From NCBI GenBank assembly GCA_002483145.1, contig DLHJ01000003.1, forward strand, positions 434,001-498,000: 64,000 nucleotides of DNA. Reading direction: 5' to 3'. The notes below the pieces were generated by a model. It saw only the letters and a program-made list of their open reading frames with translations. It was not told the DNA's origin and searched no databases. Source of the stretch: Cellvibrio sp. UBA7671. GTDB taxonomy: Bacteria; Pseudomonadota; Gammaproteobacteria; Pseudomonadales; Cellvibrionaceae. Made by a program: the position numbers and the translations under genes. Shown one piece after another: positions 5,694 through 43,721 of this stretch (its first letter is position 1; each line of letters starts with the position of its first letter).

Positions 5694-6120
5694 AAAAATG
5701 CAAGCTAGCCTCCTAACTGAAGAGGACAAACTTTTCCTAAGCAACCTTCAATCCTGGATGCGGTCATCGATGGAATTTTCCATCTTGGGCATTCAACCCA
5801 AAGATTCCGATTTGGTTCGTATCGACGGAAAGCTATCACCCTATCTGGCATTAATGCTCGGGCAAAAGTCTGCGTTTGTATCTTTAGAGGAATTGCGCCA
5901 GCTATGCGAGAATTCTGCGCAGAACGGATTGATTTATGAGGCTTGGATGGATAGCGCGCTGCAGAATGCGTACATCTTTTCGAAACCATTACAGACAGAA
6001 GATGCTTTCCGCTTCATTACGTATTTTAAAGCCTATCACGAGATCGATAATGAAGAAGCTTTGGCAGCAGAAGCAAGAGAAGCTCTCGATCGTGCGCGTG
6101 AAGAACTTTATGGGTATTAG
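5686..6120 (+). CDS. Hypothetical protein (144 aa) coupled to DUF2786
   Basis: The ATG at 5686 lies inside the last codons of the DUF2786 gene, with GGGGA seven bases upstream; a longer in-frame start at 5635 would overlap far more and has no site. The protein is soluble and mostly helical, with a C-terminal acidic/Ala-rich helix (EALAAEAREALDRAREEL). No family recognised. The coupling suggests function together with DUF2786. Confidence 0.7.
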   Translation: MAEKMQASLLTEEDKLFLSNLQSWMRSSMEFSILGIQPKDSDLVRIDGKLSPYLALMLGQKSAFVSLEELRQLCENSAQNGLIYEAWMDSALQNAYIFSKPLQTEDAFRFITYFKAYHEIDNEEALAAEAREALDRAREELYGY

Positions 6121-6149
6121 GAATTCGTTCAGATATTTTAAGCAATTCC

Positions 6150-6348
6150 GTTGAATTCTTGACCTGTTCAAGTAAACTTAATTGGACTTCAGCTTTAGCT
6201 GGATCTATATCAACCACCAAAGGCACACAGAGTGGTTACGTCGAAAGACGGTGCCTACATTCAATAAGGCTTTTACGCCTACATCAACGACCCACGGGGA
6301 TAACTTATCCTCTGGGTAGGTTTCCCTTTTTTCCAGGAGACCTAACTC
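6150..6348 (+). promoter_or_regulatory. Structured 5' leader, copy 1 of the recurrent ICE leader
   Basis: In order: CAGC-TTTA-GCTG hairpin; GTC-GAAA-GAC hairpin (6240-6249) inside a GGCAC/GTGCC stem; TTCAATAA (6260-6267); AGGC-TTTTAC-GCCT hairpin; then CCCA(6291-6294)-GGATA(6298-6302)...TATCC(6306-6310)-TGGG(6313-6316); then a CCC-TTTTTT run and AGGAG before the ATG at 6349. Hairpin order and TTCAAT match the leaders in front of radC, the ardB-like gene and others, although the distal GGG arm is not obvious in this copy. Confidence 0.6.
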
Positions 6349-6561
6349 ATGTCACAAAACTCACCTTTTGGTTCTTTGGCCGCACAATCTTGTGGTCCGT
6401 TGCTTCCGCTGGAAGTTCTCAAGTCGCGTGCCGGATTTTATATCGGAACATCGACCGATGAAGGCCCATATTCGCGGGAGTCCGTAGAATATTGGCATGC
6501 CGAATCAGAAGCATGGTATGCCTTAAAAAATCAAACCTGGACACAAAGACTTCATCCTTAG
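6349..6561 (+). CDS. Small conserved-type ICE protein (70 aa)
   Basis: Starts with MSQNSPFG; the AGGAG at 6333-6337 supports the start. Contains a short motif around AGFYIGTSTDEGPYSRESVEYW that resembles small proteins I have seen in other PFGI-1-type elements, though I cannot name a family. It is the first of three very short genes (6349, 6575, 6798) with gaps of 13 and 10 bases, expressed from the structured leader upstream and ended by one terminator. Confidence 0.72.
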   Translation: MSQNSPFGSLAAQSCGPLLPLEVLKSRAGFYIGTSTDEGPYSRESVEYWHAESEAWYALKNQTWTQRLHP

Positions 6562-6574
6562 TGGAGATGAAATT

Positions 6575-6787
6575 ATGACAAGTCATATTGCCAATTTATT
6601 TTCCCCCAAGGGGCTTGATTACTATCAGGATCTCACCAGAGATATGAAGTGCTCAATTGATGTGACTCGTGATGAGTCTGCAGCCGTTTTAAAGGCTTAC
6701 GATCGTGGCGTGGACGTTTTGAACCAAGACGAATTGCAATTACTGAACTCTGTGATCGCAAAACTGAAAGATGTAATTCACCCTTGA
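6575..6787 (+). CDS. Small hypothetical protein (70 aa)
   Basis: GTGGAG lies eight bases before the ATG. The protein is all-helical by composition, with no signal or membrane segment and no family recognised. Second gene of the three-gene small-protein unit. Confidence 0.68.
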   Translation: MTSHIANLFSPKGLDYYQDLTRDMKCSIDVTRDESAAVLKAYDRGVDVLNQDELQLLNSVIAKLKDVIHP

Positions 6788-6797
6788 GTAAACTGAT

Positions 6798-7004
6798 ATG
6801 ACGCCATTTCCAGATCACTACGTCGGTAATATCACTCGTGTAGACAAACTTGCAGATGGGGCAATTTCAATTTGCTTTTGGGCGAAAAGAGAAGAGTCAA
6901 TAACCGAGGTATTACACGCAACACCCGAAGACTATCTTGCAGAGTTTCCTGGTCATGCTATCGAAGTAAAACCTTGGCCATCTCAAACTTTACCCACTCA
7001 ATGA
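6798..7004 (+). CDS. Small hypothetical protein (68 aa)
   Basis: Third gene of the unit, 10 bases after the previous stop. It looks like a small beta-rich domain (VGNITRVDKLADGAISICFW) with a proline-containing end. Its stop codon lies inside the loop of a terminator hairpin, so the 3' end of the coding sequence doubles as the first terminator arm. No family recognised. Confidence 0.68.
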   Translation: MTPFPDHYVGNITRVDKLADGAISICFWAKREESITEVLHATPEDYLAEFPGHAIEVKPWPSQTLPTQ

Positions 7005-7013
7005 GTGGGTTTT
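6992..7013 (+). terminator. Rho-independent terminator overlapping a stop codon
   Basis: ACCCACTCA (6992-7000) and TGAGTGGGT (7002-7010) are perfect inverted repeats followed by TTT. The TGA stop of the preceding gene is inside the hairpin. Confidence 0.8.
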
Positions 7014-7232
7014 ATTCCAGAGCCTTTTCATCGAGAAGGCTGCGGAATAAAGATTTAAGTACAGCCTAAGCTGCCCTTAAAAAGCTATCCACTGGATCTG
7101 CGGAGTTTACTCCTACGATAGCGCGGCGAAAGCCTGATCCTATACTCACCCCACTGGGAAACACACTCCCATTGGGCGTGGTGTTTTTCTCACTGGGGTT
7201 TTCTTTTTTCATCCCTAGCTAGGAGAAATACC
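7012..7232 (+). promoter_or_regulatory. Structured 5' leader of the DUF3577 gene, copy 2 of the recurrent ICE leader
   Basis: A 220-base chain of hairpins. TTATTCC (7012-7018)/GGAATAA (7044-7050) encloses AGCCTT/AAGGCT. Then come CAGC-CTAA-GCTG, ATCC/GGAT, GGAG-TTTA-CTCC, GGC-GAAA-GCC (7125-7134), then CCCCA (7149-7153)-TGGGA (7155-7159)...TCCCA (7167-7171)-TTGGG, then a distal TGGGG (7194-7198) followed by TTTTCTTTTTT and AGGAGA before the ATG. The CCCCA arm can pair with either the near TTGGG or the distal TGGGG. A 'DUF3577 RNA motif' is known from computational RNA surveys; identity is plausible but untested. Confidence 0.72.
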
Positions 7233-8054
7233 ATGTCACACTCAAATAATATTGCCGATCAAAAAATCCGTTGGTTCAATGCTCACACCGAAGCATGCGG
7301 TTACCTGAATGGCCTGAAAGAAGTTAAACCTTCTCCCGGTCAAACATTTAAACCATTCTGGACAACCACCTTCTGCAAATTAGAAGGTAATCCAGAAAAC
7401 CCTCGGAAAACCTATATCAGCATATCCATCGCCAACCCCAAAGTTGTCGAGATATTGAAACCTCATGCCAACCAATTGAATATGGAAGGCTCTCGGGTTT
7501 TTGTTACTGCACGAATCTCTGATCTTGAAGTAGAACCTTTTATCTACGGAAATAACAGTAGCCGTGCAGGTCAGTTGGGCGTTAATTGGCAGGCCAAACT
7601 TATTTCACTCATTGCGTTAAAGGTCGGTGACATTACGATTGACCTGAAGAAAGAAACGACCACTGACTTTGGTGTGAATGCAAATCAATCTGCAACGAAT
7701 CACCAGCCACAAAATAGTCCTTCACTTTTTGATTTGCCGTTGATGGTTACCCTGGATAAAAACGAAGCTAACTTTGAAGTAACCAAGCAACGTTTGAAAG
7801 ACTCCGGGTATCGTTGGAATGGCGAAAAGATAGCGTGGTACCTGGCTACCATTAAAGTGGAAAATAGCGATCCAGCTATCAATGAGAAGCGCCAAGCTTT
7901 GAATGATGCAGGATATACATTTTCCAGTAACGATAATGTTTGGAGGATGCCAACTGCCCCAAAGCAGCAAAGCAATCCCCCGAGTCAACCAGTCGGCCTC
8001 CCAGGTCGGCACCATCAAGACAGTCAGCAACCAAGCAACCAACGCCAGCAGTAA
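7233..8054 (+). CDS. DUF3577 / STY4534-family ICE protein
   Basis: The 273-residue protein begins with RWFNAHTEACGYLNGLKEVKP, matching the DUF3577 N-terminal pattern (FDLHT.G.GYLNR.REV.P). The family is annotated as an ICE replication-associated protein, probably a single-strand-binding-like fold. Unlike the short family members it carries a second half (about residues 165-250) with two similar units of the form VTK-RLKDSGYRWNG-KIAWYLA and NEKRQALNDAGYTFSSNDNVWRM, then a Gln/Ser/Pro-rich tail. Start supported by AGGAGA nine bases upstream. It follows a long hairpin-rich leader. Confidence 0.8.
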   Translation: MSHSNNIADQKIRWFNAHTEACGYLNGLKEVKPSPGQTFKPFWTTTFCKLEGNPENPRKTYISISIANPKVVEILKPHANQLNMEGSRVFVTARISDLEVEPFIYGNNSSRAGQLGVNWQAKLISLIALKVGDITIDLKKETTTDFGVNANQSATNHQPQNSPSLFDLPLMVTLDKNEANFEVTKQRLKDSGYRWNGEKIAWYLATIKVENSDPAINEKRQALNDAGYTFSSNDNVWRMPTAPKQQSNPPSQPVGLPGRHHQDSQQPSNQRQQ

Positions 8055-8799
8055 GGCAGCAGTCGCAAGGTAAGAGTGTACTATCAGTGTTTCTGATGCT
8101 TTTAGGGATGGTGTAAACCATCTCTGAAGGCGTCATATCAGAGCCATTCGAAAATACCAGGATGACTGTGATATGATTTACGAACTCCAGACGCGGCTGC
8201 CTCCGCGCCCCTTAGCCCTTCGGGGTTTGGCGGACCAATCGAGGTTAAACGTCCGTAGGCTAACGCCTCCTCGTATCTTCAAGCTGGGTTGAATCATGTA
8301 CGTCTTGCTGGCGTCCTCAACATGATTCTATCTGCCCCCAGAATGCCTTTCGCAGTGAGATGCGAAACACTCCATCAAAACAGTGACCTTACTATTGATG
8401 CTTCGGCGTCGGTATTAGGGTCACTCTTTATCAGGACGCAGTGCTTTGACACAGCGCCATAGCCAAGTAAATTTTCTTACTGTGGCGCCCTATCAGAGCA
8501 TTGCTCACAATCCCTCAAAAGTGCGCCCGCCCGCATCAAAATAGGCGGCATCGTTGTGCAGAATTGACTGTGCGCGATTAATGGTTTGTTGAGATCCGAC
8601 CCGTCAAAACAAACAAAGCACTGCGCATGGACGCGCATATTTCTTGAGAAATGATGCACTAGCTTTTTGTTATACAGACAACTAGTTCATCGTTTTTCGT
8701 TTTAAGTCCAGCGTCACACGCTGACCTTAATAACGATCATCCATAAGTGCAGCGATACATTCGTATCTATGATGATCTCACCGCAAGGTGGCACTTACC
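8055..8799. other. Gene-free, densely folded 745-base region
   Basis: No convincing ORF on either strand. Inverted repeats seen include CCCC/GGGG within TCCGC/GCGGA (about 8200-8235); GAATCATGT (8291-8299) with ACATGATTC (about 8320-8328); TTTCGCA/TGCGAAA (8348-8367); a 20-bp arm pair 8382-8401/8406-8425 closed by TTCG with one mismatch; GCGCCA/TGGCGC with inner AGTAA/TTACT (8454-8488); TGCGC/GCGCA; and ATTTCT/AGAAAT near 8640. G-T pairs and a TTCG loop point to an RNA fold rather than a DNA palindrome. It could be a large non-coding RNA, an extended leader for radC, or an origin-like region. Confidence 0.5.
8382..8425 (+). ncRNA. Near-perfect 20-bp hairpin with TTCG loop inside the folded region
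   Basis: The arm at 8382-8401 (AGTGACC...TTGATGC) pairs with 8406-8425 (GCGTCGG...GGTCACT) around TTCG (8402-8405). Nineteen of 20 positions pair if G-U is allowed; the mismatch is C against T. There is no T-run after it, so it is not a terminator. G-U pairs suggest plus-strand RNA. Confidence 0.5.
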
Positions 8800-8901
8800 T
8801 TCAATCAGGGTTTAATCCCTTTCAGTCAAACAGCCCGTTGGGAAAATTCATTCCCAGCGGGAGTCAATTTTCTTCACGGGCTTTTTTTGTGGAGAAAGAC
8901 G
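8800..8901 (+). promoter_or_regulatory. Attenuator-like leader of radC, copy 3 of the recurrent ICE leader
   Basis: TTCAATCA (8800-8807) leads into AGGG-TTTAAT-CCCT, then AGCCCGT (8832-8838), TGGGAA (8839-8844)...TTCCCA (8851-8856), CGGG (8858-8861), then ACGGGCT (8876-8882) followed by a seven-T run and GGAG before the ATG. CCCG (8834-8837) can extend the inner hairpin with CGGG, or AGCCCGT can pair perfectly with ACGGGCT to make a terminator next to the T-run. The two folds exclude each other. A radC RNA motif is known upstream of such genes; whether this is that motif needs a covariance-model search. Confidence 0.75.
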
Positions 8902-9369
8902 ATGGGTAACCAACAAGCATTTAATTACTCGACAGCCGATGAAGTCATCAATGCAGCAAAACACATTATGGAATCCATGATGGAGCAGCGCGATACATTG
9001 TTAACCAGCCCTGACCTAGTCAGGCAGTATTTAATGATGAGATTGGGCAGAGCAGAGCGCGAAATATTCTGCGTAATATTTCTGGACAATCAAAATCGTT
9101 TAATTGCTGCTGAAGATCTGTTTATGGGTACGATCGACGGAGCCAGTGTTTATCCAAGAGAGGTGCTTAAGGCAGCTCTCAAATATAACGCTGCCGCCGT
9201 TTTGCTTGCACACAATCACCCAAGTGGTGTTGTGGAGCCAAGCCAAGCTGATCAACGAATTACACAACGGTTGCAAACTGCTTTAGAGCTTGTAGATGTT
9301 CGTGTGTTGGATCACTTCGTTGTATCAGGTACCGAATCCACCTCATTTGCAGAACGTGGTTTGTTGTAA
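8902..9369 (+). CDS. radC: RadC-family JAB/JAMM domain protein
   Basis: The 155-residue protein is essentially one RadC (JAMM/MPN+) domain. The metal-binding motif [14 protein letters not shown] is intact, preceded by the conserved [18 protein letters not shown] and followed by [11 protein letters not shown]-borne RadC proteins are short like this one and lack the N-terminal helix-hairpin-helix of chromosomal RadC; their function is unproven despite the old DNA-repair name. The ATG at 8902 with GGAG eight bases upstream is preferred; an in-frame start at 8788 would translate the structured leader. Confidence 0.92.
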
Positions 9370-9370
9370 T

Positions 9371-9479
9371 TTCAATCAAGGCTTACGCCACTCTTACCCC
9401 AGCGGGAATTATTCATTCCCGCTTCGGGCGTGATGATTTTCCAATGGGTTTTCATTTTTTTTATCCAAGGAGAATCATC
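9371..9479 (+). promoter_or_regulatory. Attenuator-like leader of the antirestriction gene, copy 4 of the recurrent ICE leader
   Basis: Begins one base after the radC stop with TTCAATCA (9371-9378), then GGC-TTAC-GCC (9380-9389), then CCCA, GCGGGAAT/ATTCCCGC hairpin, near CGGG, then distal TGGG followed by TTTTCATTTTTTTT, and AAGGAGA before the ATG. Same order and same CCC-arm choice as the radC leader. Confidence 0.72.
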
Positions 9480-9902
9480 ATGAGTACAGCTACTGCTTCA
9501 CAATCAAAAATAGTCGCTACCGTTGTTCCAGGTCATTTGCGGGCGGCCACACTGCCAAAGCGCTTTCCTGGTATGTTCCTAGTGTTCGAGTCACTTGTGT
9601 ATCGTTATTTGGAAGTATTTTCAGATAACTACAAAGGCGGATACTGGGAATTTTTTGATTTGAGCAATGGTGGTTTTTACATGTCGCTGAATTCAAATGC
9701 CCGGTTCTATTTGTCCATAGCCAGCAATGGTTTTGAAGGCGAGATGACGGCGGATGCAGCAAGCCTGGTAGTAAACATGTTTGCTATTGGCCAATTGGCT
9801 AACCAGCATAAAACAGACTATCTCATCGAGTTGTATCACCTGCTGCGTACTTTTGTGAGTGAGCATCCTGAGGTTAATCGAATTCTTTGTGCCATCGATT
9901 GA
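9480..9902 (+). CDS. ArdB/KlcA-like antirestriction protein
   Basis: The 140-residue protein contains LPKRFPGMFLVFESLVYRYL, then YKGGYWEFFDLSNGGFYM, then the ADAASLVVNMFAIGQLA helix and a final HPEVNRILCAID, in the order of the ArdB/KlcA antirestriction family. These proteins protect incoming conjugative DNA from host type I restriction. The ATG at 9480 follows AAGGAGAATCATC; an in-frame extension to 9444 is leader sequence. Its position beside radC under the same type of leader fits an early-expressed establishment function. It may also limit damage from restriction systems in a recipient; the type of enzyme affected is not shown here. Confidence 0.85.
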   Translation: MSTATASQSKIVATVVPGHLRAATLPKRFPGMFLVFESLVYRYLEVFSDNYKGGYWEFFDLSNGGFYMSLNSNARFYLSIASNGFEGEMTADAASLVVNMFAIGQLANQHKTDYLIELYHLLRTFVSEHPEVNRILCAID

Positions 9903-9910
9903 GGTGAAGT

Positions 9911-10189
9911 ATGAGTGATCGTGTGCAGATCGAGGTTCGTGCGTGCTTTATTAATCAAAATACGGGTGATGTGGTTGAAACGACATCACCTGACCCAGCC
10001 TTAACGCCAAACTTGTTTGGTGTTTACATGCGTCCAAGCAATGGCGATCAAGACTGGGTTTGGTGTGCAGATTTTGCCACCTATGAGTATTTTGAATTTT
10101 TTATCGATGCTTTTGTATTGAAGTATCACAATGATGGTTCTGGATTTGATTTGGACTTAAGCAAAATCAGTAACCATATTCATCGTTAA
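9911..10189 (+). CDS. Hypothetical protein downstream of antirestriction gene (92 aa)
   Basis: Starts 8 bases after the antirestriction gene, with GAGGTGAAGT upstream, so it is co-transcribed with it. Acidic and aromatic-rich (VWCADFATYEYFEFFIDAF), which is a composition seen in DNA-mimic inhibitors, but no family is recognised and DNA mimicry is only a guess. Confidence 0.7.
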   Translation: MSDRVQIEVRACFINQNTGDVVETTSPDPALTPNLFGVYMRPSNGDQDWVWCADFATYEYFEFFIDAFVLKYHNDGSGFDLDLSKISNHIHR

Positions 10190-10191
10190 AT

Positions 10192-10279
10192 TTCAATTTT
10201 TACTAATCCGCCCGGTGGGAATTTACTTCCCACCGGGAGTGGATTCTTCCGGGCTTTCTTATTTTCTCGGGAGAATTTT
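10192..10279 (+). promoter_or_regulatory. Attenuator-like leader, copy 5 of the recurrent ICE leader
   Basis: TTCAAT lies two bases after the previous stop. GCCCGG (10210-10215) is followed by TGGGAA (10216-10221)...TTCCCA (10227-10232), near CCGGG (10233-10237), and distal CCGGGC (10249-10254) followed by TTTCTTATTTT and CGGGAG before the ATG. This is the cleanest copy: the first arm is perfectly complementary to both downstream arms. The small upstream hairpin of other copies is missing. Confidence 0.75.
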
Positions 10280-11566
10280 ATGACTCACACAATTCGTGCT
10301 CAATATGACCTGATTGCCGGTAAAGAAGCCTTGGCTTCCGATTTCGGAGCAATGTTGGATTGGATTGAGCAATGGGATATGAAGCCCTGCAGTAGTGTTT
10401 ATTTTGGTGAAGAGGTCAATGCTTTACTGGTGCGTAACTGGATTGCATTTCGTAATTCGTTGACTAATACACTAAATCAATATAACCGTAGCTTTCTTGA
10501 AGATTGCGCGCGTGAAGCATGCGAACCAGAGGATTTTTATGAAATCCAGGATTGCATGGATGAGATCACGGATGGTCAGCTGATGGCTTTGGGACGTTTG
10601 TTTTATCCCGGTGGAAAGGCCATAGTAAAACAACCTGAAAGCATTACTTCCATCGCGGTTGAGTGGTGTGTGGAAGATATTCAATCTATCAGGCCCGACT
10701 TAACGGATGAACAAGCCGGTGCAGTTTTACAAGCTGCTGATCGTTGTCACAATGCTGAGGTTGGCATTAATTGGGATGTACTTCGATTTCATGCAGATGA
10801 TCTATTTCCGGAGGAGGATGAGGATGAGGATGAGGATGAGGATGAGGATGAGGATGAGGATGAGGATGAGGATATTGACCTGGCAGATGAGTTATTGCCC
10901 GAGTCTTCTGAAGTAAATAGTAAGTATGCTGATTCAATAATTGCGGTCAACCCTTCCAATTATGATGCTATTGAAGTTCATGGAGTTCGCAACATCAACG
11001 ACGCAGATGATCCTGATGGGACACATTACGAAGTTGACGATGAGAACCCTGAGCTATACAGCGTGTATTTGCATTGTGTTGGAGGCGGCATCGAGTGTGT
11101 TGGTGACTTTTCATCTAATGCTCTCGCCGAAGAATATGCAAGCGAGCTTTCCATGCTCTACTCATGGAAGGTCTTGCACTTTCCGCTAGTCGTTATCGGT
11201 GAGGAGGATGAATCTGCAGAAGAGTTATTGCCTCTGTCTTCTGAAGTGACCACTGAGAGTGAATTTTCAACTAATGATCTCCCTGTGTTCCGTTGCCTCC
11301 GGGGTTTTCATACCGAGCAATTTGTTACAGCTGATTGGGATTTAATTTATTCAATAGACCCTTTAGAAAGTTGTAGCGGCCAAGTTGCCTGTATTTTTAC
11401 TGACAGCTACGATGATCTGGAAAGCGCTGCTATCAGTGGTGCAGTGTATTTTGGAAGCCAGCCAATTTGTAGTCGTGCAGAATTGGAGGGAGCATTGATT
11501 GGTCATGAAATGACTCTCAAGGCGACTGGTGTAAATTCAATTCTGTTTTTTGTTAGAACGCGTTAA
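10280..11566 (+). CDS. Large acidic protein with Glu-Asp dipeptide repeat (428 aa)
   Basis: No family recognised. The N-terminal 175 residues are helical with a W-rich start (MLDWIEQWDMKP). A Glu-Asp repeat follows at about 178-198, encoded by ten perfect GAGGAT units. The second half contains EVHGVRNINDADDPDGTHYEVDDENPELYSVYLH (seen as DDPDGTHYEV then ELYSVYLH), a possible beta-rich domain, and two similar short segments ADELLPESSEV and AEELLPLSSEV around 205 and 315 that suggest an internal duplication. Whole protein very acidic. Ends at a strong terminator. Confidence 0.78.
   Translation: MTHTIRAQYDLIAGKEALASDFGAMLDWIEQWDMKPCSSVYFGEEVNALLVRNWIAFRNSLTNTLNQYNRSFLEDCAREACEPEDFYEIQDCMDEITDGQLMALGRLFYPGGKAIVKQPESITSIAVEWCVEDIQSIRPDLTDEQAGAVLQAADRCHNAEVGINWDVLRFHADDLFPEEDEDEDEDEDEDEDEDEDEDIDLADELLPESSEVNSKYADSIIAVNPSNYDAIEVHGVRNINDADDPDGTHYEVDDENPELYSVYLHCVGGGIECVGDFSSNALAEEYASELSMLYSWKVLHFPLVVIGEEDESAEELLPLSSEVTTESEFSTNDLPVFRCLRGFHTEQFVTADWDLIYSIDPLESCSGQVACIFTDSYDDLESAAISGAVYFGSQPICSRAELEGALIGHEMTLKATGVNSILFFVRTR
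10814..10873 (+). repeat. Ten perfect GAGGAT tandem repeats
   Basis: Sixty bases of uninterrupted six-base repeat inside the 10280 gene, preceded by an extra GAG. The unit is in frame, so copy-number slippage would lengthen or shorten the acidic Glu-Asp stretch without breaking the gene. Confidence 0.95.
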
Positions 11567-11573
11567 TTCTTTT

Positions 11574-11603
11574 GCCCCCGATTGCTTTTGCATCGGGGGC
11601 TTT
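11574..11603 (+). terminator. Rho-independent terminator after the acidic-repeat gene
   Basis: GCCCCCGAT (11574-11582) pairs with ATCGGGGGC (11592-11600), followed by TTT, seven bases after the stop codon. Confidence 0.82.
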
Positions 11604-11604
11604 A

Positions 11605-11934
11605 GAGGTACTCATCTGCAACCCCGAGCTGGTGAAAACCGGTCTGGATCTGCTGGAGTTCCCGTCCATCGTCTTTATGCAAACGGGTTACAACGTCTAC
11701 ACCCTAATGCAAGCCGCTCGCCGCTCCTGGCGAATTGGTCAGCAACAGGGAGTAGAGGTCGTATTCTTGGGTTATGCCCAATCAGCCCAAAGCCGTTGTT
11801 TAGCGCTGATGGCTGAGAAGATTGCGGTAAGCCAATCTACCTCTGGAGATATTCCGGAGTCAGGCTTGGATTCACTCAATCAGCGCGGGGACAGTATTGA
11901 AATGGCGATGGCCAGGGATTTGATAGCTGCGTAA
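11605..11934 (+). pseudogene. 3' remnant of an SNF2/DEAD-type helicase
   Basis: The frame reads VLICNPELVKTGLDLLEF, VFMQTGYNVYTLMQAARRSWRIGQ and then a C-terminal region to the stop at 11934. This is motif V and VI (including the arginine fingers RRSWRIGQ) of a large SNF2-like helicase that normally follows radC in this ICE class. Only about 110 codons remain; the ATPase core is absent and the frame upstream runs straight into the terminator of the acidic-repeat gene. No ribosome binding site or credible start is visible. A recombination event has replaced the rest of the gene. Confidence 0.82.
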
Positions 11935-11949
11935 TTGTTTAAAATTAAG

Positions 11950-11969
11950 CCCTCTTCGGAGGGTTTTTT
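11950..11969 (+). terminator. Rho-independent terminator of the former helicase gene
   Basis: CCCTC-TTCG-GAGGG (11950-11963) is followed by six T, 15 bases after the remnant's stop codon. Confidence 0.85.
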
Positions 11970-12504
11970 CTACCCGAAACAACTGTGAATTATTGCTTGA
12001 ATTAGCTTTTCGCGCGAATGACCAGATATAACCGTCAAGAAAAGCAGTCCAGTATCGTTCCAATCGGACTCGTTTGGAGTTATCGACTATAGATTTTCAA
12101 TGATACAGTGCAGTTTGGTAATTTTTGAGTGTATGTATTTTTTGCTTTGTTTCCATCGACTGGCTACCAAGCCAGCATGAATACTAAGAAAGAGCGGCAT
12201 TTATTTCTGTCAAAAATTTACAATCCCGACTAGTTAGATGTTAGGAATAGTGAACTCTCAGAAAGTAATTAGAAGGCCGCATCACCTTGAGATATTAAGA
12301 TCGCATTCGATTGAACACCTTAAGCAACTTAGTCACCAAGCGGGGCAATCCTCTTTAAGGTTATCGAGTATCGAAAATTTACTCACAACAGCACATAGCT
12401 TCCTTAACTTTGAGTAAAAAACACTCCTGCTGAAAAAAGTCAGTGTCATATTTTGGAATTTTTATAAGACGATTCTTGGGTAAAGCTCGTAATTCGCACA
12501 TGTT
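11970..12504. other. Gene-free junction before the restriction-modification island
   Basis: About 535 bases without a supportable gene on either strand. Base composition becomes AT-rich towards the right end. No inverted terminal repeats, direct repeats or insertion-sequence signatures were found. It likely carries the promoter for the HTH/methyltransferase operon near its right end. Confidence 0.5.
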
Positions 12505-12530
12505 TAATGTACATTAAAGTACATTAAAGA
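12505..12530 (+). promoter_or_regulatory. Palindromic operator candidate for the RM operon
   Basis: TAATGTACATTA (12505-12516) is a perfect 12-base palindrome, followed after two bases by a second half-like copy, AGTACATTAAAG. The pair lies about 30-50 bases before the HTH gene, where a promoter would be. Likely bound by the HTH protein to delay or balance restriction expression; that is inference. Confidence 0.5.
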
Positions 12531-12558
12531 TCGTCAATATCCATTGGTTACTATCTAT

Positions 12559-12759
12559 ATGATCGCCGAAAACGAAGAAACAATGATAACGTTAAAAGAA
12601 GTTGCGGAATGTTTAAACGTAAATGAACGGACCGTATATCGATGGGTTACAAACGGTGAATTACCTGCATATAAGTTAGGAAAGGTGTGGAGAGTGAAAC
12701 CTTCTGAGCTAAATGATTGGGTAATTAAGAACAAAAATTCGGGAGGAGCCGGACGTTGA
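12559..12759 (+). CDS. HTH (excisionase/MerR-like) DNA-binding protein, probable RM regulator
   Basis: The core TLKEVAECLNVNERTVYRWVTNGELPAYKLGKVWRVK is a winged helix-turn-helix of the excisionase (helix_turn_helix_17) family (seen as EVAECLNVNERTVYRW and AYKLGKVWRV). About 60 residues. The start is uncertain: ATG at 12559 or 12583 (weak GAAG upstream); TTG at 12544 is least likely. Its stop overlaps the TTG start of the first methyltransferase, so it is the first gene of the operon and plausibly its control protein. Confidence 0.8.
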   Translation: MIAENEETMITLKEVAECLNVNERTVYRWVTNGELPAYKLGKVWRVKPSELNDWVIKNKNSGGAGR

Positions 12760-14048
12760 CCCTTAAAGACATCGATGGCCTATCAATTTACAGGCCAGTC
12801 CAGTATTTGGGGGCAAAAATAAGAACGTTACCAGCCATTATAGAGGCCACCGATTATTTGCTGGGCTCCAATGGAACTTGCTTGGATCTGTTTTCCGGCT
12901 CTTCAGTCGTTTCACAAACTTTGCATGCTAAAGGATTGAAGGTCATCGGTAATGATGCGTTACGTTTTTCGTTCCTAATTACGCATGCCTTAATTTCTAA
13001 TCATCAGCTTTCGAATGTTGAAAAACTGTTATCTAGATTTGTAAATTCAGATAGCGAACTTCATGGAATCGAGAAAAAAATATCGGCAGAAAAAAATGCA
13101 ATCAATAAGAAAGATCCCACTGTCCTAATTAAGCAAAATATCGAAACATTAATGGATTGGGATAAAAAAAGATTAAACCTTATAGCATCATTAAACGAAA
13201 CCGAAAAGTGGAAGAACACGGCAGTGCTCCTCTATTCAGGTACTTATTTTGGATTTAATCAGGCCAAGCATATTGATTTAATACGGTCAAAAATATTTGA
13301 TCTTATTCGCAAAAAAAATATAACACTTTATGAGTATTCATTATTAATGACAGCTCTTTTTTCGACCATCTCTCAGTCAGTTTTTTCAGCTGGAAAACAT
13401 TTTGCGCAGCCTCATTTAATAAAGACAGAAAAAAATCTACCTTTCATATCCAAAAGAATAATTCAAGATAGATCTTATGATGTTTTGGAAACATTTAAAA
13501 TTAAAGTTAAAGAGCTTGTAAAAATAAAGTCAGAATCAAAAAACAATGACTCATATGCAACGAATGAAAATTTGGAATCATTAGTTAAAAATAGAAAGCT
13601 TGAAAAAATTGACTTGATATATGCAGATCCGCCTTATACGGCTCAGCAATACTCTCGCTTTTACCATATTCCGGAGGTGCTATCTGAAGACAAATTTCCC
13701 GAACTTCAATTAGTGAATGGAAAGGTCACTAGGGGAATTTATCCTGTAGATAGATTTAAATCCAAGTTTTGCTCAAAAAAAACAGCCCATGAAGCATTTG
13801 AAGATATTTTTTTATTATCAAAAAAATATGATTCATCATTAATACTAAGTTATTCGTTATCGAAAAACTCAGCCACAGGCAATGAGAGAATGATCTCACT
13901 AGATAAGCTTCTTGATCTTTCTCGGAAATTCTATGGAAAAAATGTACATCTCATTGAATTTGCGCACACATATCGTCAATTCAATAATATTGCCTCCGTA
14001 GTTAACAAAAAAGAAGATAAAGAAATTCAAATAGTTTGCAAGAAGTAG
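12756..14048 (+). CDS. DNA adenine methyltransferase 1 of the LlaJI-like RM system
   Basis: The 430-residue protein has, in order, motif X-like VQYLGAKIRTLPAI (about 18-31), motif I CLDLFSGSSVVSQTL (about 47-61), a long variable region, and motif IV IYADPPYTAQQYSRFYH (about 290-306). This order fits a D12/alpha-class N6-adenine methyltransferase with a large target-recognition insert. It starts at TTG with a strong GGGAGGAG six bases upstream, overlapping the HTH gene stop. Low GC and Lys/Ile/Asn-rich codon use contrast with the backbone, a sign of horizontal acquisition. Together with the next gene it probably methylates the two strands of an asymmetric site. Confidence 0.87.
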   Translation: MTLKDIDGLSIYRPVQYLGAKIRTLPAIIEATDYLLGSNGTCLDLFSGSSVVSQTLHAKGLKVIGNDALRFSFLITHALISNHQLSNVEKLLSRFVNSDSELHGIEKKISAEKNAINKKDPTVLIKQNIETLMDWDKKRLNLIASLNETEKWKNTAVLLYSGTYFGFNQAKHIDLIRSKIFDLIRKKNITLYEYSLLMTALFSTISQSVFSAGKHFAQPHLIKTEKNLPFISKRIIQDRSYDVLETFKIKVKELVKIKSESKNNDSYATNENLESLVKNRKLEKIDLIYADPPYTAQQYSRFYHIPEVLSEDKFPELQLVNGKVTRGIYPVDRFKSKFCSKKTAHEAFEDIFLLSKKYDSSLILSYSLSKNSATGNERMISLDKLLDLSRKFYGKNVHLIEFAHTYRQFNNIASVVNKKEDKEIQIVCKK

Positions 14049-14058
14049 GTTTTATTGA

Positions 14059-15321
14059 ATGCTAAATAGATACATAGGAAATAAAAAGTCCATTCTTGAG
14101 CCCATCATCAGTCAGGTCAAAGAAAAGCTCCCAAATGGTGGCAGAGTATGCGATGCATTTTCTGGCTCATTGGCAGTAAGTTTTGAACTGAAAAAGGAAG
14201 GGTATGAAGTTTCAACAAATGATATAAATTTATTTTCTCATTTTTATGGAAAGCATTTAATTGAGCAATGCAGCTTGCCAGAAATAGAGCTTGCATCATT
14301 TAATATAGACAATGTTGATAAGCATATAAATCAAGCTCAACTGATTTTGGATAGAGGGATTTCTGGCGCAGAGGATTACAGTTTTCTAAGAAACAAAAAA
14401 AACTCACACCGCTTTCAGAAACTGCTTACTGTGTATTTGTATTTAAATAATTTAATGGATGGCAAACCAAAAGGAAATAGTTATTTTTTTGATACCTATA
14501 CTGAAGAAGGTAAAAATTCTCACTTTGAGAGTCAGAGAGGGACAATAGGACGCCGTAAATTTTTCACTCCATCCAATGGACGTAGGCTCGATTTGGTAAT
14601 GAATCAGATACGAAAATGGAATAAAGACGGCGTGCTTGAAGATGGTTACTTTAAGTATACATTGGTTTGCAGTGTTATTGATGCTTTAGAAAAAGTCAGC
14701 AACACTCAAGGTACGTATCATGATTTTCCAAGAGATAAATATGACTCGCGGGCTCATATTCCGTTGATGCTATACCCTCCAAATTTTGATGGAATAATTT
14801 CAAAAAAGAAAAAGCATATAATTGGACGCTGCGAAGACTCGATAGAATTTGTATCAAAAATTCCAAGCCAAGATCTACTATACTTAGATCCGCCATACAA
14901 CTTCAGGCAATATACAAGTTATTATTTTTTACCGAATGTTTTATGTGAATACATTGATATGGATGATTTGAAGATCTATTTCGATAATGTGCAGTTTGTA
15001 AGAGGTCAAAACATGACAAACGATTTTAATTCATCTTTTTCTAAAAAAAATGAATTTATTAAATCGTTATATAATTTGGTAAAAAACTGTGACACAAAAA
15101 ACGTATTAATGAGCTATTTTGATGGGCGAAATCATTGGAATAACACTGCGGATGGTACGGATGTTGAGGGAAAAGAAGTGCTACTAAAGTTTTTCAATAG
15201 TGAATTATTTATAGCTGGCACATGCGATCTCATTCCATTTGATAGACTTAATTATCAGAGTTACGGCGGCCACAAGGCTAAGTTTATAAAAGAGTTTTTG
15301 TTCTCAGGAGTAAAAAAATGA
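14059..15321 (+). CDS. DNA adenine methyltransferase 2 of the LlaJI-like RM system
   Basis: The 420-residue protein has motif X NRYIGNKKSILEPI (3-16), motif I CDAFSGSLAVSFEL (about 31-44) and motif IV LLYLDPPYNFRQYTSYY (about 273-289), again the alpha-class order with a long central region. It begins 10 bases after the first methyltransferase and overlaps the McrB-like gene by ATGA. It is only distantly similar to its neighbour. Paired adenine methyltransferases differ from LlaJI itself, where both are cytosine-C5 enzymes. Confidence 0.87.
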   Translation: MLNRYIGNKKSILEPIISQVKEKLPNGGRVCDAFSGSLAVSFELKKEGYEVSTNDINLFSHFYGKHLIEQCSLPEIELASFNIDNVDKHINQAQLILDRGISGAEDYSFLRNKKNSHRFQKLLTVYLYLNNLMDGKPKGNSYFFDTYTEEGKNSHFESQRGTIGRRKFFTPSNGRRLDLVMNQIRKWNKDGVLEDGYFKYTLVCSVIDALEKVSNTQGTYHDFPRDKYDSRAHIPLMLYPPNFDGIISKKKKHIIGRCEDSIEFVSKIPSQDLLYLDPPYNFRQYTSYYFLPNVLCEYIDMDDLKIYFDNVQFVRGQNMTNDFNSSFSKKNEFIKSLYNLVKNCDTKNVLMSYFDGRNHWNNTADGTDVEGKEVLLKFFNSELFIAGTCDLIPFDRLNYQSYGGHKAKFIKEFLFSGVKK

Positions 15322-17138
15322 TGTTTTGGAATACATTGTTAAGCGGCAAGGCTCTCGCGGACTGGATTATGGCGTTAGTAGCAGACCCTGTTGCTAATCC
15401 AAATGCAAGATTCGATAAAGGACAAAAATTAGATCCGTTTCAAACATCCATGAGAGATGCAAAGGGTATTTCCGCTTGGCTTTCAGATGTAGAACAAGGA
15501 AGGTTAATAAATAGAGGGGGTAATGGAAATCAAGCCTATACCGATTTAAAAGGAGCTTTTCTTATTGAGGAGCATCAAGGTGCTCATGTATTGAGTATAT
15601 TAGGTCGAAATGTGCTGAATAAATGGAGGCAGGCAGGCATCGACAATTCCAATGAGAACGATGATTTTTCGCGAATGTTGCTGCTTGTTTTGGAGGCCAG
15701 AACACTATCTATACAGGCATATCTAGATATGCTCACGTTTTGGTCGGAAATACGGGAGTCAGGCTCACCAATATCATTCATATTAAATCCAGAATCATTA
15801 TATTTAATGGGGCTGCTCTGTAACGAGCTAACCGGATTTAAGCCGTGGGACGTAATCAAAAGAAACTCGTTGCAATTCCAAGCCAATGGAACAATCGATC
15901 AGCTGAGGGATGCATATAGAACTAATAACAATATTCTCTCCAGATTAGATAAAATTGAAGTGTGGTTACAAAACTCAGCTTCACGAGCATCAGGTAGGCA
16001 AAAATTTTGTTTGGCTATGGAATGCGCTTTTGCTCCAATTGGAGAGGCAACCGCTCTAATTGAATCGCAAAATGTCACTGATCTTGTAGGAGTCTGTACC
16101 GGTGATCGACTAAAGCTCTTTTTTGATGAGTATGATTTGTTTAATATTAGACAAAATTATGCCATTAAAGGCGAGAATAGAATATTTTACGGTGCTCCTG
16201 GCACAGGAAAAAGCACGCAAGCCAAGAAAATAATTAGAGGTTCAGTATTCGAGGTCGTAACATTTCATCCCGCTACTGACTATTCCAGCTTTGTTGGATA
16301 TTACAAACCAATATCCATAGAAAACAATGCCGGCGAGCAAGTAGTTCAATACACTTATCAAGCACAACACTTTCTCCGCATTTATGTAAAAGCATGGAAG
16401 GATCTGGCAAATAAGCATTATTTGTTAATAGAAGAAATTAACCGTGGAAACTGCGCAAAGATATTTGGTGACATATTTCAATTGTTAGATCGTGATGATC
16501 AAGGGTTTTCTGATTATGTAATAAATGCAGATTCAGATGTTTCTGAATATCTTCGAAAAAACTTAAATAATGCGGAATACAAAAGCTCAATTAGAGAACT
16601 AGTCTTACACAAAAATAACGTTTCGTTACACGAAGATGAATTGTTTTCCGTTCTAGCTTTACCAAATAATTTATCAATAATTGCCACAATGAATACCTCT
16701 GACCAATCATTATTTCCTATGGATAGTGCCTTTAAGCGTCGCTGGAATTGGTCATACACACCAATTATTACTCCGATGGGGACAGTAACAATTCAGGTAA
16801 ATAATGAACGATATGATTGGTTTGATTTTGTTCAGAAGGCAAATAAAAAGATATCGTTAGTTACAGAAAGTGAGGACAAAAAAATTGGAAATTATTTTGT
16901 TAAGCCGCTAGATCAGAGGATTGATGTGGATACTCTGGTGAATAAAGTCATGTTTTATCTATGGAATGATATTTTTAAGGAAGAGTATGGATATGATATA
17001 GAAAACAATATATTCGTAATAAGTGAAAATGATGAATTGAAGCCAATTTTATACTCAGACCTATACCAAGAAGCCGGTATAAATGAAATTACCCTTCAAA
17101 AGCTACTAGAAGCAAATAAAATAGCCAAGATTAATTGA
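15318..17138 (+). CDS. McrB-like AAA+ GTPase/ATPase restriction subunit
   Basis: The 606-residue protein has an N-terminal region of about 280 residues, probably target binding, followed by an AAA+ domain: Walker A FYGAPGTGKST (about 290-300), Walker B LIEEINRGNCAKIFGD (about 374-389), and the McrB-type MNTSDQSLFPMDSAFKRRWNW, which carries the MNxxD nucleotide-specificity signature and arginine finger. McrB proteins form hexameric GTP-driven motors that recruit McrC. The start overlaps the upstream methyltransferase stop. The N-terminal domain differs from the DUF3578 fold of E. coli McrB. Confidence 0.9.
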   Translation: MMFWNTLLSGKALADWIMALVADPVANPNARFDKGQKLDPFQTSMRDAKGISAWLSDVEQGRLINRGGNGNQAYTDLKGAFLIEEHQGAHVLSILGRNVLNKWRQAGIDNSNENDDFSRMLLLVLEARTLSIQAYLDMLTFWSEIRESGSPISFILNPESLYLMGLLCNELTGFKPWDVIKRNSLQFQANGTIDQLRDAYRTNNNILSRLDKIEVWLQNSASRASGRQKFCLAMECAFAPIGEATALIESQNVTDLVGVCTGDRLKLFFDEYDLFNIRQNYAIKGENRIFYGAPGTGKSTQAKKIIRGSVFEVVTFHPATDYSSFVGYYKPISIENNAGEQVVQYTYQAQHFLRIYVKAWKDLANKHYLLIEEINRGNCAKIFGDIFQLLDRDDQGFSDYVINADSDVSEYLRKNLNNAEYKSSIRELVLHKNNVSLHEDELFSVLALPNNLSIIATMNTSDQSLFPMDSAFKRRWNWSYTPIITPMGTVTIQVNNERYDWFDFVQKANKKISLVTESEDKKIGNYFVKPLDQRIDVDTLVNKVMFYLWNDIFKEEYGYDIENNIFVISENDELKPILYSDLYQEAGINEITLQKLLEANKIAKIN

Positions 17139-18927: not shown

Positions 18928-20187
18928 TTAGGTGCATGCAGCCAATGGAAGGTCGCACCAGCTCCCTGTAAACATTGGCGAACGCTTCGCTTGTTTCATG
19001 CTCCACTTTTTTTTCGTTCCTTCGGCCGCACAGAACAGCGTACCCCGTCCAAAACTTGAGTTAACCTGGTCAATCAGTGACATTAATTTATCCGATCTCA
19101 CCGATTGTACTGGTGTAAATAAATCAACTTGAATATTGCTCTTATCGGTAATGTCGATCAGTCCAACACCGGCTTTTTGGAATTGATAGCCTTTTCTGAA
19201 TAGCTGCGAAATCGCAAATGTAGCATAGGCAATTAAAACGCGAGTATCGTCTGTTGGATAAGGCAGTTTAATGGTTGCACTTTTAGAATAATGATTTTCA
19301 CCAAATGGCGATGTTTGCAAAAACACCAACATATTAGTAGCCAAACAATTCTGCTTCCTCAGCTTCTCACCAGCGCGGCTTGCATAGAGTGCGACTGCTT
19401 GTTTGATCGGCTCTAACTCCGACTGTTTTTCACCGAAAGATCGTGTGCAGTAAATTTGTTTTTTGGGTGATGGTTGCTCTTCTAGTTCCAGGCAGCTTAC
19501 TCCATTTAATTCTTCAACTGTACGCTCCAGTGTTACATTGAACTGTGTTCGCAAGTGCTTTGTATTGGCGTTCGCCAAATCCCATGCGGTGTGAATCCCC
19601 ATATCTGCTAGCCGTTTTGAGGTTCGTGATCCAACGCCCCACACGTCTTTGGTCGCCGCCTTTTGCAATAACCATTCGCGCTGATCTTCACGTTCCAGCA
19701 CGCACACATGATTAAGTTTTGGAATTTTCTTGGCTGCTTTATTGGCGAGCTTGGCGAGTGTTTTCGTTTGAGCAATGCCGACGCCCACAGGAATTCTCAC
19801 CTGTTTCCAAATAGCCTTTTTTATTTGTTGGCCGTATTCCTGGTAATTACCAAATAACACATCAATTGGCCGCACGAAGGATTCATCGCAGCTGTAGACT
19901 TCTACATCGCTCGCAAATTGTCGGATGGTATCCACTACACGCGCGGATATATCTCCATAGAGCGCGTAGTTTGATGAGAACACGTGAACACCATGCTTTT
20001 TAAGTAACGGTTCTAATTTGAAGTAGGGTTCGAGATCTGGAATCCCAAGTGCCTTGGCTTCCTTGGAGCGAGCCACAATGCAGCCGTCGTTATTTGAAAG
20101 CACAACCACAGGCTTGCCTCGCAAATCCGGGCGAAAGATTTGCTCACAGCTACAATAAAAAGAATTGCAGTCTATTAAACCGAACAC
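18928..20187 (-). CDS. umuC: UmuC-like error-prone DNA polymerase V subunit
   Basis: The 419-residue Y-family polymerase begins MFGLIDCNSFYCSCE, with catalytic Asp6 in the DCNSFY motif, SNNDGCIVARS, and VYSCDESF holding the second pair of catalytic acids (Asp101/Glu102). The helix-hairpin-helix part, DVWGVGSRTSKRLADMGI, and a little-finger domain follow, so length is normal. It replicates past lesions together with UmuD'. The start overlaps umuD by 13 bases on the same strand, so the pair is one operon under the LexA box at 20612. Confidence 0.95.
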   Translation of the reverse strand: MFGLIDCNSFYCSCEQIFRPDLRGKPVVVLSNNDGCIVARSKEAKALGIPDLEPYFKLEPLLKKHGVHVFSSNYALYGDISARVVDTIRQFASDVEVYSCDESFVRPIDVLFGNYQEYGQQIKKAIWKQVRIPVGVGIAQTKTLAKLANKAAKKIPKLNHVCVLEREDQREWLLQKAATKDVWGVGSRTSKRLADMGIHTAWDLANANTKHLRTQFNVTLERTVEELNGVSCLELEEQPSPKKQIYCTRSFGEKQSELEPIKQAVALYASRAGEKLRKQNCLATNMLVFLQTSPFGENHYSKSATIKLPYPTDDTRVLIAYATFAISQLFRKGYQFQKAGVGLIDITDKSNIQVDLFTPVQSVRSDKLMSLIDQVNSSFGRGTLFCAAEGTKKKWSMKQAKRSPMFTGSWCDLPLAACT

Positions 20188-26325: not shown

Positions 26326-26811
26326 CTATTTTGATTTTTTCCGCCAATCCCAGGGCGGGATAATCTGATCTGCACTCATTGACCACAATCCAGCTTTTTG
26401 TGTTTTAGCGTGATCCTGGAGGAGAAAGTACTCTTGGTCTGCAACATATTTGGTGTATGCCCATGCATCACCATTCTTAACCATTAGCTTATTAACATTT
26501 TCCTCCAGCAGGTAAATGGTACCCAATGTTCTGCCATACCTGTCTTTGCCAGTGGTGCTGACTGTTACGTTTTTGGTGGCTATGAGCAACGAGAGGGCTT
26601 GTTTCGATTTGTTGCCCCAAGGTTGATTTGTTTCGGGCGCATCTATTTCGGAGAGGCGTACATTGATGGTTTCAGAGCCGTTCACAAGGAGAGAGACCGT
26701 ATCACCATCACTTACTTTGACGACTTTTCCTGCAATTTGGTCTGCAGCGGATACTGCTTGGATAGCGAGAAGAAGCGAGAGGAGGGAAACCTTTAATATA
26801 TTCATAAGCAT
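26326..26811 (-). CDS. Secreted thermonuclease (SNase-like) family protein
   Basis: The 161-residue protein has a signal peptide (about 1-23, ending AVSAAD) followed by one staphylococcal-nuclease domain: GKVVKVSDGDTVSLLV, VRLSEIDAPETNQPWGNKSKQAL (seen as RLSEIDAPE with the catalytic Arg and Asp/Glu), and DRYGRTLGTIYL with the second active-site Arg, ending WSMSADQIIPPWDWRK. Catalytic residues all appear present. It should act in the periplasm or outside the cell and cut DNA or RNA, using calcium. Such nucleases are frequent in plasmids and ICEs, possibly processing DNA at the cell surface. Confidence 0.9.
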   Translation of the reverse strand: MLMNILKVSLLSLLLAIQAVSAADQIAGKVVKVSDGDTVSLLVNGSETINVRLSEIDAPETNQPWGNKSKQALSLLIATKNVTVSTTGKDRYGRTLGTIYLLEENVNKLMVKNGDAWAYTKYVADQEYFLLQDHAKTQKAGLWSMSADQIIPPWDWRKKSK

Positions 26812-27145
26812 CCATGTTTGAGCTTTATTACATTTAAGAGAGGGAGATTACTTGCTGTTATTTGTATGTCAATTACTCGATATTACGCAACAGATACCCA
26901 TTCGTCACCCTTTTGGTCTGAAAAATTCAGCTGAGATATTGCACCCTACCGAAGAACAAACTATCTTTATGGGGCTATATGCCCAGTGACATCTTCACTG
27001 ACCCTTAATTTAGCTGCACACAGGTCCGCAATGCAGCAAGACGAAAGTCTGTCCTAATCCTTACCACCCATCGGGGAGTCTAATCCTCCCCGCCCGGGCT
27101 GGCCTTAGCTCCTTCGATTTATTTATTTAAATCCTGGAGCACCCC
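26812..27145 (+). promoter_or_regulatory. Intergenic region ending in copy 6 of the recurrent ICE leader
   Basis: The left half holds promoters for the divergent genes. The right half carries AGAC-GAAA-GTCT (27039-27050), then CCC (27067-27069), CGGGGAG (27072-27078)...CTCCCCG (27086-27092), GGG (27096-27098), then GGCCTTAGCTCCTT and TGGAG ahead of the ATG at 27146. The GNRA-type small hairpin followed by the CCC-GGGGA...TCCCC-GGG hairpin is the same order as the DUF3577 and radC leaders, though the T-run is weak here. Confidence 0.65.
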
Positions 27146-43720: not shown

Positions 43721-43721
43721 G

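Follow-up and report, generated by a model that had tools for sequence, protein, structure and literature searches.

Leader-specific alternative pairings before replication, RadC and antirestriction genes of an integrative and conjugative element point to a possible four-strand RNA switch

Why should seven genes of one mobile element be preceded by leaders that carry the same parts in the same order? The question is raised by a 64,000-nucleotide stretch of Cellvibrio sp. UBA7671 (contig DLHJ01000003.1, positions 434,001 to 498,000 of the forward strand; hereafter the window), which lies inside an integrative and conjugative element (ICE), as its transfer-gene matches above the NCBIfam cut-offs indicate (TraC-like TIGR03744, TraD TIGR03754 and TIGR03743, TIGR03755, and TIGR03752). 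The leaders stand before genes at 6349, 7233, 8902, 9480, 10280 and 27146 on the plus strand and 33883 on the minus strand. Among these genes are DUF3577 (PF12101, at 7233), RadC (8902) and an Antirestrict protein (the ardB-like gene at 9480), and a Pfam scan gave no family for the products of 6349, 10280 and 33883. NCBIfam names the DUF3577 product an STY4534 family ICE replication protein, with the window copy at 51.9 bits and the cut-off at 160. An earlier note on this DNA had proposed that a shared signal controls antitermination of these establishment genes through attenuator-like leaders.

In these leaders, a hairpin H2, formed by strands S1 and S2, is followed by a hairpin H3, formed by S3 and S4, of which S4 is the Shine-Dalgarno (SD) strand. 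S1 together with part of the H2 loop can alternatively pair with S3, a pairing that we call ALT. The strict form of H2, CCC-GGG(A/G)...(T/C)CCC-GGG, was found at six sites in the 64 kb when counted on the strand of the following gene (7149, 8834, 9397, 10211 and 27067 on the plus strand, 33959 on the minus strand), with an SD and an ATG directly 3' in all six. Before 6349, the seventh copy (6290) departs from this pattern and was recognised by reading and folding. The observation of the earlier note is thus confirmed, and it reaches further than that note had it. Folding placed the SD inside the 3' arm of H3 in 7/7 window leaders, the arms being GATGATTTTCC/GGAGAATCATC in the 9480 leader, for instance, and GGTTTCC/GGAGACC in that of 6349. 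This SD-sequestering hairpin had been overlooked, as had the pseudoknot and the outermost hairpin, H0, which are described below.

The same leaders recur in other genomes. A search for DUF3577 was positive in 14 of 96 genomes, own genome included, and when 8-20 kb were read around ten DUF3577 places, the leaders were seen again before different genes. PF12101 was present in 15 of 274 genomes of the class, and the narrower family NF040584 in 7 of 349 sampled genomes of the phylum, all seven of the same class. From contigs of named genomes, 80 loci were kept of 452 relatives. The first set of 93 leaders was reduced to 88 by dropping 5 identical ones, and the second, named set from 227 to 208 by dropping 19; L023 was excluded as a copy of L022. 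In 16 of the 80 loci a leader is at least 90% alike to one of the first set, which makes the second set for the most part, though not entirely, independent. Of the 80 named loci, 71 contain one or more leaders whose H3 reaches -7 kcal/mol, and in 62 the DUF3577 gene is preceded by H2. Up to 9 rows were obtained per locus, partly second start codons of one leader, by which some leaders are counted twice (e.g. L060+7682 and +7689). Record titles were mostly Gammaproteobacteria, and other phyla stood in a few titles of metagenome-assembled genomes (L068, L073, L077, L080, L090 and L105), which may be binning errors.

The strict module (H2, H3 no weaker than -9, ALT no weaker than -8, an SD and a start codon) was counted in the window and loci L051-L130, amounting to 910,010 bases per strand. 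It occurred 181 times on the gene strand and 7 times on the opposite strand, one of these seven being the genuine window leader of 33883; three dinucleotide shuffles gave 6, 2 and 3. A covariance model, R1, was then available from 29 DUF3577 leaders of other elements, without window sequence. At E ≤ 1 in 253 kb, R1 matched five of the seven window leaders, those of 10280 (10211-10282, E 1.5e-5), 33883 (33881-33959, minus strand, 9.7e-5), DUF3577 (7149-7235, 0.0046), 9480 (9397-9482, 0.095) and radC (8834-8904, 0.41). The 6349 and 27146 leaders were missed, and no further window site was matched at that level. Over the own whole genome, where 150 of 854 candidates were scored, R1 gave at least three matches with E no higher than 10, of which two are window leaders. 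In pKLC102 (L131), 7 of the 12 plus-strand genes in 6900-14738 had an R1 match (E 2.1e-5 to 1), and all seven matches end exactly at the annotated start codon; there was no other R1 match at E ≤ 1 within 16 kb, pil genes included. With a looser script, H2 was seen before 10 of the 12 genes but H3 at -7 or better in only 5, in part because some hairpins were badly split by the script; there were also weak matches before two of four pil genes.

Covariation of the stems was examined with a swap test, in which the duplex energy of a leader's own strands is compared with that of strands exchanged between leaders of one element (2000 permutations). At least 8 of the 88 first-set rows look like chance or antisense hits (e.g. 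L011+883, L032+4384, L035+217 and L048-1767) and were kept in this test. In the first set (15 loci, 72 leaders), own strands paired better than swapped ones in H2 (-19.94 against -16.29, z -8.5), H3 (-11.89 against -9.20, z -8.6) and ALT (-11.23 against -9.67, z -6.2), with 0/2000 permutations reaching the own value in each case. The second set, used with all 208 rows minus the 16 overlapping loci (28 loci, 113 leaders), gave z -8.0, -10.2 and -7.2 for H2, H3 and ALT, again 0/2000 each, and after thinning to 20 dissimilar loci (88 leaders) z -6.5, -9.2 and -6.4. Control pairs of the first set carried no pairing signal (S2:SD z 0.3, S1:SD z 2.6), and those of the second (28 loci) gave z -2.3 for S2:SD (19/2000), -1.2 for S1:SD and 0.4 for S2:S3. 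Among 36 segment pairs, upstream segments included (53 leaders), only H2, H3 and ALT went beyond z -2.0. The results of these tests bear out the covariation that the earlier note had read in the stems; what they demonstrate is leader-specific complementarity, not function.

ALT draws both on the S1 stem and on H2-loop bases that are unpaired in H2. For these loop bases alone, 3.41 paired in matched leaders as compared with 2.48 and 2.47 in swapped ones (two sets, 0/2000). The alternative pairing of the first arm that had been described for radC and 10280 is present in both, and among the 208 leaders from named relatives ALT is at least as strong as -7 kcal/mol in 182. In an alignment, A4, of 29 of 42 dissimilar DUF3577 leaders, whose pair counts describe the more uniform leaders because 13 less evenly aligned ones were excluded, H3 was paired in 82.1% and showed 20 double-change cells against 11.2 after shuffling (1/500), and ALT, whose structure was drawn by inspecting the same alignment, was paired in 90.3% and showed 15 against 5.5 (0/500). 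The true registers of H3 and ALT beat slid registers, and G-U pairs are frequent in both. In addition, S1 with the loop often resembles the gene's own ribosome-binding site (RBS), as in pKLC102, where GGGAAACCAT in H2 stands against GGAAAACCATG at the start of gene 7362, and in L019 (GGGGAATTTCATCAT against GGAGAATCATCATG); this similarity was higher in matched than in swapped leaders, a result reached by 4 and 0 of 2000 permutations in the two sets.

The T-run of the earlier note was then followed; a T-tract was counted where 5 or more of 8 bases following the ALT stem are T. The 36-pair test and later analyses were filtered for H3 ≤ -7 (75 of 88 first-set rows), and the T counts, the pseudoknot scan, the TTCA count and the SD-opening test below also for ALT ≤ -7 (241 rows from both sets, partly overlapping), so that the choice of rows favours pairing. 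A T-tract follows ALT in 27/30 leaders of the window's genus and in 13/39 and 57/172 others, that is, in 70/211 outside the genus and 97/241 overall: the T-run stands for the genus and is not general. T is nonetheless enriched at +1 to +8 after ALT in all three leader sets, with a fraction of 0.53-0.90 in the own genus (background 0.30) and 0.38-0.69 in the others (background 0.22-0.23), and beyond +8 it drops in the two sets outside the genus. Outside the genus the tract is anchored to the end of S3, not to the SD, as in an intrinsic terminator, but the H3 loop likewise has its 5' side at the point where S3 ends. The strength of ALT correlated weakly with the T count, at Spearman -0.16 (p 0.013), and that of H3 at -0.11 (p 0.095). 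S3:SD pairing at -7 or better was found in 75/88 and 190/208 leaders. SD masking is thus a wider feature than T-tract termination, and antitermination is not the common denominator, because the T-tract is present in only 70/211 leaders outside the genus. Of the antitermination proposal, the mutually exclusive pairings and the T enrichment remain, and no shared signal was identified. A generic terminator scan considered only loops of 3-8, and it is therefore blind to ALT and uninformative on attenuation.

The simplest and, in our view, best account of these results is that the leaders are double-gated four-strand riboregulators directly before the start codon, a reading to which we give about an even chance. 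In the ground state, H2 and H3 would both form and S3 would mask the RBS. Alternatively, S3 would be paired by S1 and part of the H2 loop, which together tend to look like the gene's own RBS. If ALT formed while the polymerase was just past S3, ALT and the T-tract could, chiefly in the window's genus, serve as an intrinsic terminator; if ALT formed later, it would compete for the SD-masking strand. H2 would then decide the partner of S3, which would either join S1 in a terminator-like stem or pair with S4 and so mask the SD. By default the double gate would silence ICE replication and establishment genes, and a trans signal that frees S3 would release them. In the long leaders, the 5' pseudoknot (a radC-type domain) would be the likely sensor or binding site, as its position suggests.

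Several results weigh against this reading. H2 is much more stable than ALT (mean energies near -20 for H2 and -11 to -12 kcal/mol for ALT), so ALT needs a push, and termination needs H2 to be prevented. When S2 was blocked in silico, the share of the 241 leaders with P(SD unpaired) > 0.5 rose from 9% to 15% and the median did not move; the SD opens in few leaders, which makes "ALT means ON" weak, and ALT as a strong SD-opening state was discarded as energetically unsupported. The sign of ALT is also ambiguous, because it would free the SD yet is terminator-like before a T-tract. SD accessibility in 120-nt windows had a median of 0.250 in 70 leaders, the chance-like first-set rows included, and 0.277 in 187 control open reading frames (ORFs; p 2.5e-4), by a coarse SD picker and with uncurated controls, and so weak a difference was dropped as support. 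The swap controls were not all flat (S2:SD z -1.7, -2.2 and -2.3; H2 loop:SD z -2.9 in the second set). In the aligned DUF3577 leaders, pairs with a double change numbered 5 for H3 (5.2 shuffled) and 4 for ALT, weakly above the 2.1 shuffled (29/500), and H2 was nearly invariant (1 double change), so that covariation of H2 rests on comparisons between genes. Leader-specific pairing of upstream segments with S1, S2, S3 or the SD was not found in 53 leaders, and long-range pairing of this kind was rejected, none of the 36 segment pairs showing it; no pairing thus connects the pseudoknot with the switch. A conserved promoter 5' of the pseudoknot was likewise rejected, with an extended -10 in 2 of 47 leaders where 3.4 were expected; promoter-like sites in the window region numbered 4 where 7.1 were expected.

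Part of the same evidence could be read as plain transcription attenuation, with H2 as antiterminator, ALT and the T-tract as terminator, a signal on H2 deciding between them, and H3 as a by-product or a tuner of translation. We consider this possible, although rather doubtful. The T enrichment and the T-tracts after ALT speak for it, and so does the outer CCC of S1, which in the window's set pairs specifically with S3 beside the T-tract (z -3.2 in set 1, -0.4 in set 2). Yet 141 of the 211 leaders outside the genus have no T-tract, H3 pairing equals H2 pairing in leader-specificity, and unaided H2 beats ALT; moreover, the position of the T-tract would be dictated by S3 either way, because the tract also sits in the H3 loop.

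It is unlikely that H2 and H3 are instead sites for an RNA-binding protein of the element or host, the S1:S3 complementarity arising merely from the likeness of S1 to an RBS. Several leader copies per element, that likeness, and the G-poor, TTCA-rich stretch immediately 5' of H2 would suit a protein, but stem and loop sequences vary while pairing is kept, and the covariation of ALT extends to columns that H2 leaves unpaired. Single-stranded DNA (ssDNA) promoters exist, and the structures might work in ssDNA during transfer, as promoter or priming site, and not in RNA. The genes do come from conjugative elements, and ssDNA was raised for the STAXI motif, found near similar genes, in the passages on it of a 2010 survey (PMC2864571). 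With 181 against 7 copies by strand, linked to an SD and a start codon, and with G-U pairs frequent in H3 and ALT, we regard this explanation as very improbable.

Long and short leaders differ in their upstream part. Long leaders carry a pseudoknot with the order a, b, a', tetraloop hairpin, b'. A score of at least 36 was reached by 31/241 leaders and 7/1205 shuffles, so the pseudoknot is established for a minority of leaders. In the window it was found in the leaders of 6349, DUF3577, radC and 33883, and in part in that of 27146; the leaders of 9480 and 10280, both close behind another gene, are without it. The scan alone is unspecific, reaching 36 at five further window places besides three leaders. 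One pseudoknot-like match, at 11593-11648 on the plus strand just past the 10280 gene (score 36.0), has no strict H2 after it and is possibly chance. The upstream marks listed in the earlier note were seen as well: the leaders of 6349, radC, ardB and 10280 have TTCAAT, and a GNRA hairpin is present before 6349, DUF3577, radC, 27146 and 33883. In 122 dissimilar leaders, the roughly 8 bases immediately 5' of H2 form a stretch that is poor in G and often contains TTCA, and TTCA occurs within the last 25 bases before H2 in 36% of leaders against 12% after shuffling; this stretch may be related to the "TTCAAT start" of that note.

The individual window leaders are as follows. Before 6349 (plus strand), the pseudoknot occupies 6212-6256 (crossing-pair scan, score 38.2; a 6212-6217, b 6221-6226, a' 6232-6237, GNRA hairpin 6239-6250, b' 6251-6256), followed by H1 (6267-6280), the diverged H2 (6290-6317, by folding) and H3 (6318-6343), in which AGGTTTCC pairs with GGAGACCT and the SD is masked in the fold. 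The DUF3577/STY4534 leader (plus) has H0 and pseudoknot at 7054-7140, with H0 at 7054-7081 drawn by eye and the pseudoknot at score 32.0 (a 7084-7089, b 7094-7098, a' 7117-7122, hairpin 7125-7134, b' 7136-7140); H2, supported by strict pattern and fold, lies at 7149-7176, and H3, whose S3 is predicted to mask the SD, at 7178-7232, with ALT arms 7149-7161 and 7184-7198 and a T-tract at 7199-7209. Both strands of 8137-8699, between the DUF3577 gene and the radC leader, were checked and hold no ORF of at least 80 aa. In the radC leader (plus), H0 and pseudoknot span 8700-8797 (H0 8700-8730 by eye; score 40.9; a 8735-8741, b 8744-8750, a' 8771-8777, hairpin 8779-8790, b' 8791-8797), H1 lies at 8807-8820, H2 at 8834-8861 (strict pattern and fold) and H3 at 8868-8898, with ALT arms 8832-8846 and 8868-8882 and a T-tract to 8888.

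The short form (plus strand) comprises H1 at 9378-9389, H2 at 9397-9428 and H3 at 9430-9479 before the ardB-like gene (ATG 9480), with the ALT 3' arm at 9433-9449 and a T-tract at 9449-9462, and before 10280 H2 at 10210-10237 (strict pattern and fold) and H3 at 10242-10277, with ALT arms 10210-10223 and 10241-10254 and a T-tract at 10255-10265. The 27146 leader (plus) has H0 and a partial pseudoknot at 26984-27050, read by eye and not picked up by the pseudoknot scan at score 33 (a 27013-27017, a' 27033-27037, GNRA hairpin 27039-27050, b and b' weak), then H2 at 27066-27098 and H3 at 27108-27140, with the ALT 3' arm at 27107-27118. On the minus strand, the 33883 leader contains H0 (34048-34076, by eye), the pseudoknot (33997-34042, score 36.7), H1 (33971-33984), H2 (33933-33960) and H3 (33885-33930), with ALT arms 33949-33959 and 33913-33924 and a T-tract at 33904-33913.

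Whether the window copies are the known radC RNA motif was left undecided in the earlier note. That motif is a row in a table of the 2010 survey (PMC2864571), whose passages on it give no mechanism, and Rfam types it (RF01754) as Cis-reg, with a structure line that lacks the b:b' pairing. With membership set at a covariance-model score at or above 40 bits, plain membership of the window leaders was rejected, as the Rfam model gave no match in the window, the own genome or, at E ≤ 5, the region 6100-10300. It matched 1 of 274 genomes of the class (G355, four copies) and three places in pKLC102. The a-b-a'-hairpin-b' order is legible by eye in the four G355 copies, b:b' being our own reading, and the scan confirmed the pseudoknot in one of them (L032-7019; GCAGCC/GATC/GGCTGC/hairpin/GATC). 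H2 is present at all seven Rfam copies, after the model end in six and overlapping the end in one G355 copy. H3 is clear at two G355 copies (-15.8 and -16.3) and weak at one (-7.4); at the remaining copy it is not clear and the start codon is distant. R1 follows all three Rfam matches in pKLC102, and gave no match at E ≤ 1 on the G355 copies. The alternative raised in the earlier note, a broader class uniting the radC motif with these leaders, is supported by these observations, with R1 after 3/3 radC matches in pKLC102, H2 at 4/4 in G355, and H3 at most of the seven copies. The DUF3577 RNA motif gave no match in the Rfam scans, and whether Rfam 15 has such a model was not established.

The element also contains other genes. 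A lipid A phosphoethanolamine transferase family gene (NF028537, 656.8 bits against a cut-off of 500) lies at 42062-43876 on the minus strand, near a sensor-kinase-like gene at 38861-40201 on the plus strand, and both are apparently ICE cargo. A UmuC-type polymerase (18928-20187, minus), a staphylococcal-nuclease homologue (26326-26811, minus) and a weakly McrB-like protein (15318-17138, plus) were also seen. The DUF3577 protein profile matched 38 residues of miniGq/G-alpha-q chains in the PDB (E 1.5e-5 and 0.056); as a structural relative this was set aside, the match being odd and partial, with no stretch passing alone, and probably spurious. An 8.4-kb contig bearing several leaders (L105) also carries a cobalamin riboswitch (RF00174) at 8038-8256.

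No openly licensed paper was found whose title or abstract describes this leader. If the double-gated switch is real, it would be a common RNA lock on genes that replicate and protect ICEs, including pKLC102, and one absent from the annotation examined; the motif could be used to find such genes in unannotated elements, and the radC RNA motif would gain a testable output, being then the 5' portion of an SD-masking, partly terminator-like leader. A broader proposal, which we put forward tentatively and rate somewhat short of even, is that of a mobile-element-wide RNA regulon in a large ICE family across Gammaproteobacteria, in which a self-contained, RBS-imitating four-strand switch, present several times per element before many replication, RadC, antirestriction and establishment genes, would couple termination and translation by means of a single common strand; the radC RNA motif would be the sensor or 5' domain of this switch.

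Among known systems, radC RNA (RF01754) is, like the window leaders, a 5' leader of mobile-element genes, standing upstream of DUF3577 and RadC genes in G355 and of STY4534 and two others in pKLC102, and its 5' domain has the topology of the 6349, DUF3577, radC and 33883 leaders. It differs in that the Rfam model misses the window copies and never includes H3, and the short leaders lack that 5' domain. STAXI, which the survey passages (PMC2864571) describe as pseudoknots, two or three in tandem, in the neighbourhood of antirestriction, SSB and similar genes, resembles the leaders in having pseudoknots near such genes, whereas the leaders here have one pseudoknot with an H2/H3 module; STAXI gave no match in the Rfam scans, and no search for tandem pseudoknot repeats was made. 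In the SD-sequestering platforms of translational riboswitches and RNA regulators, as in the leaders, the SD is masked by an anti-SD strand for which another strand competes. In the leaders, however, the competitor tends to be RBS-like, many copies occur per mobile element, and a ligand aptamer would be only conjectural. Finally, terminator/antiterminator attenuators have in common with these leaders mutually exclusive hairpins that share S1, as well as the T-tract after ALT where it occurs, while here the 3' arm of the terminator would itself be the SD mask and the T-tract is absent in most leaders outside the genus.

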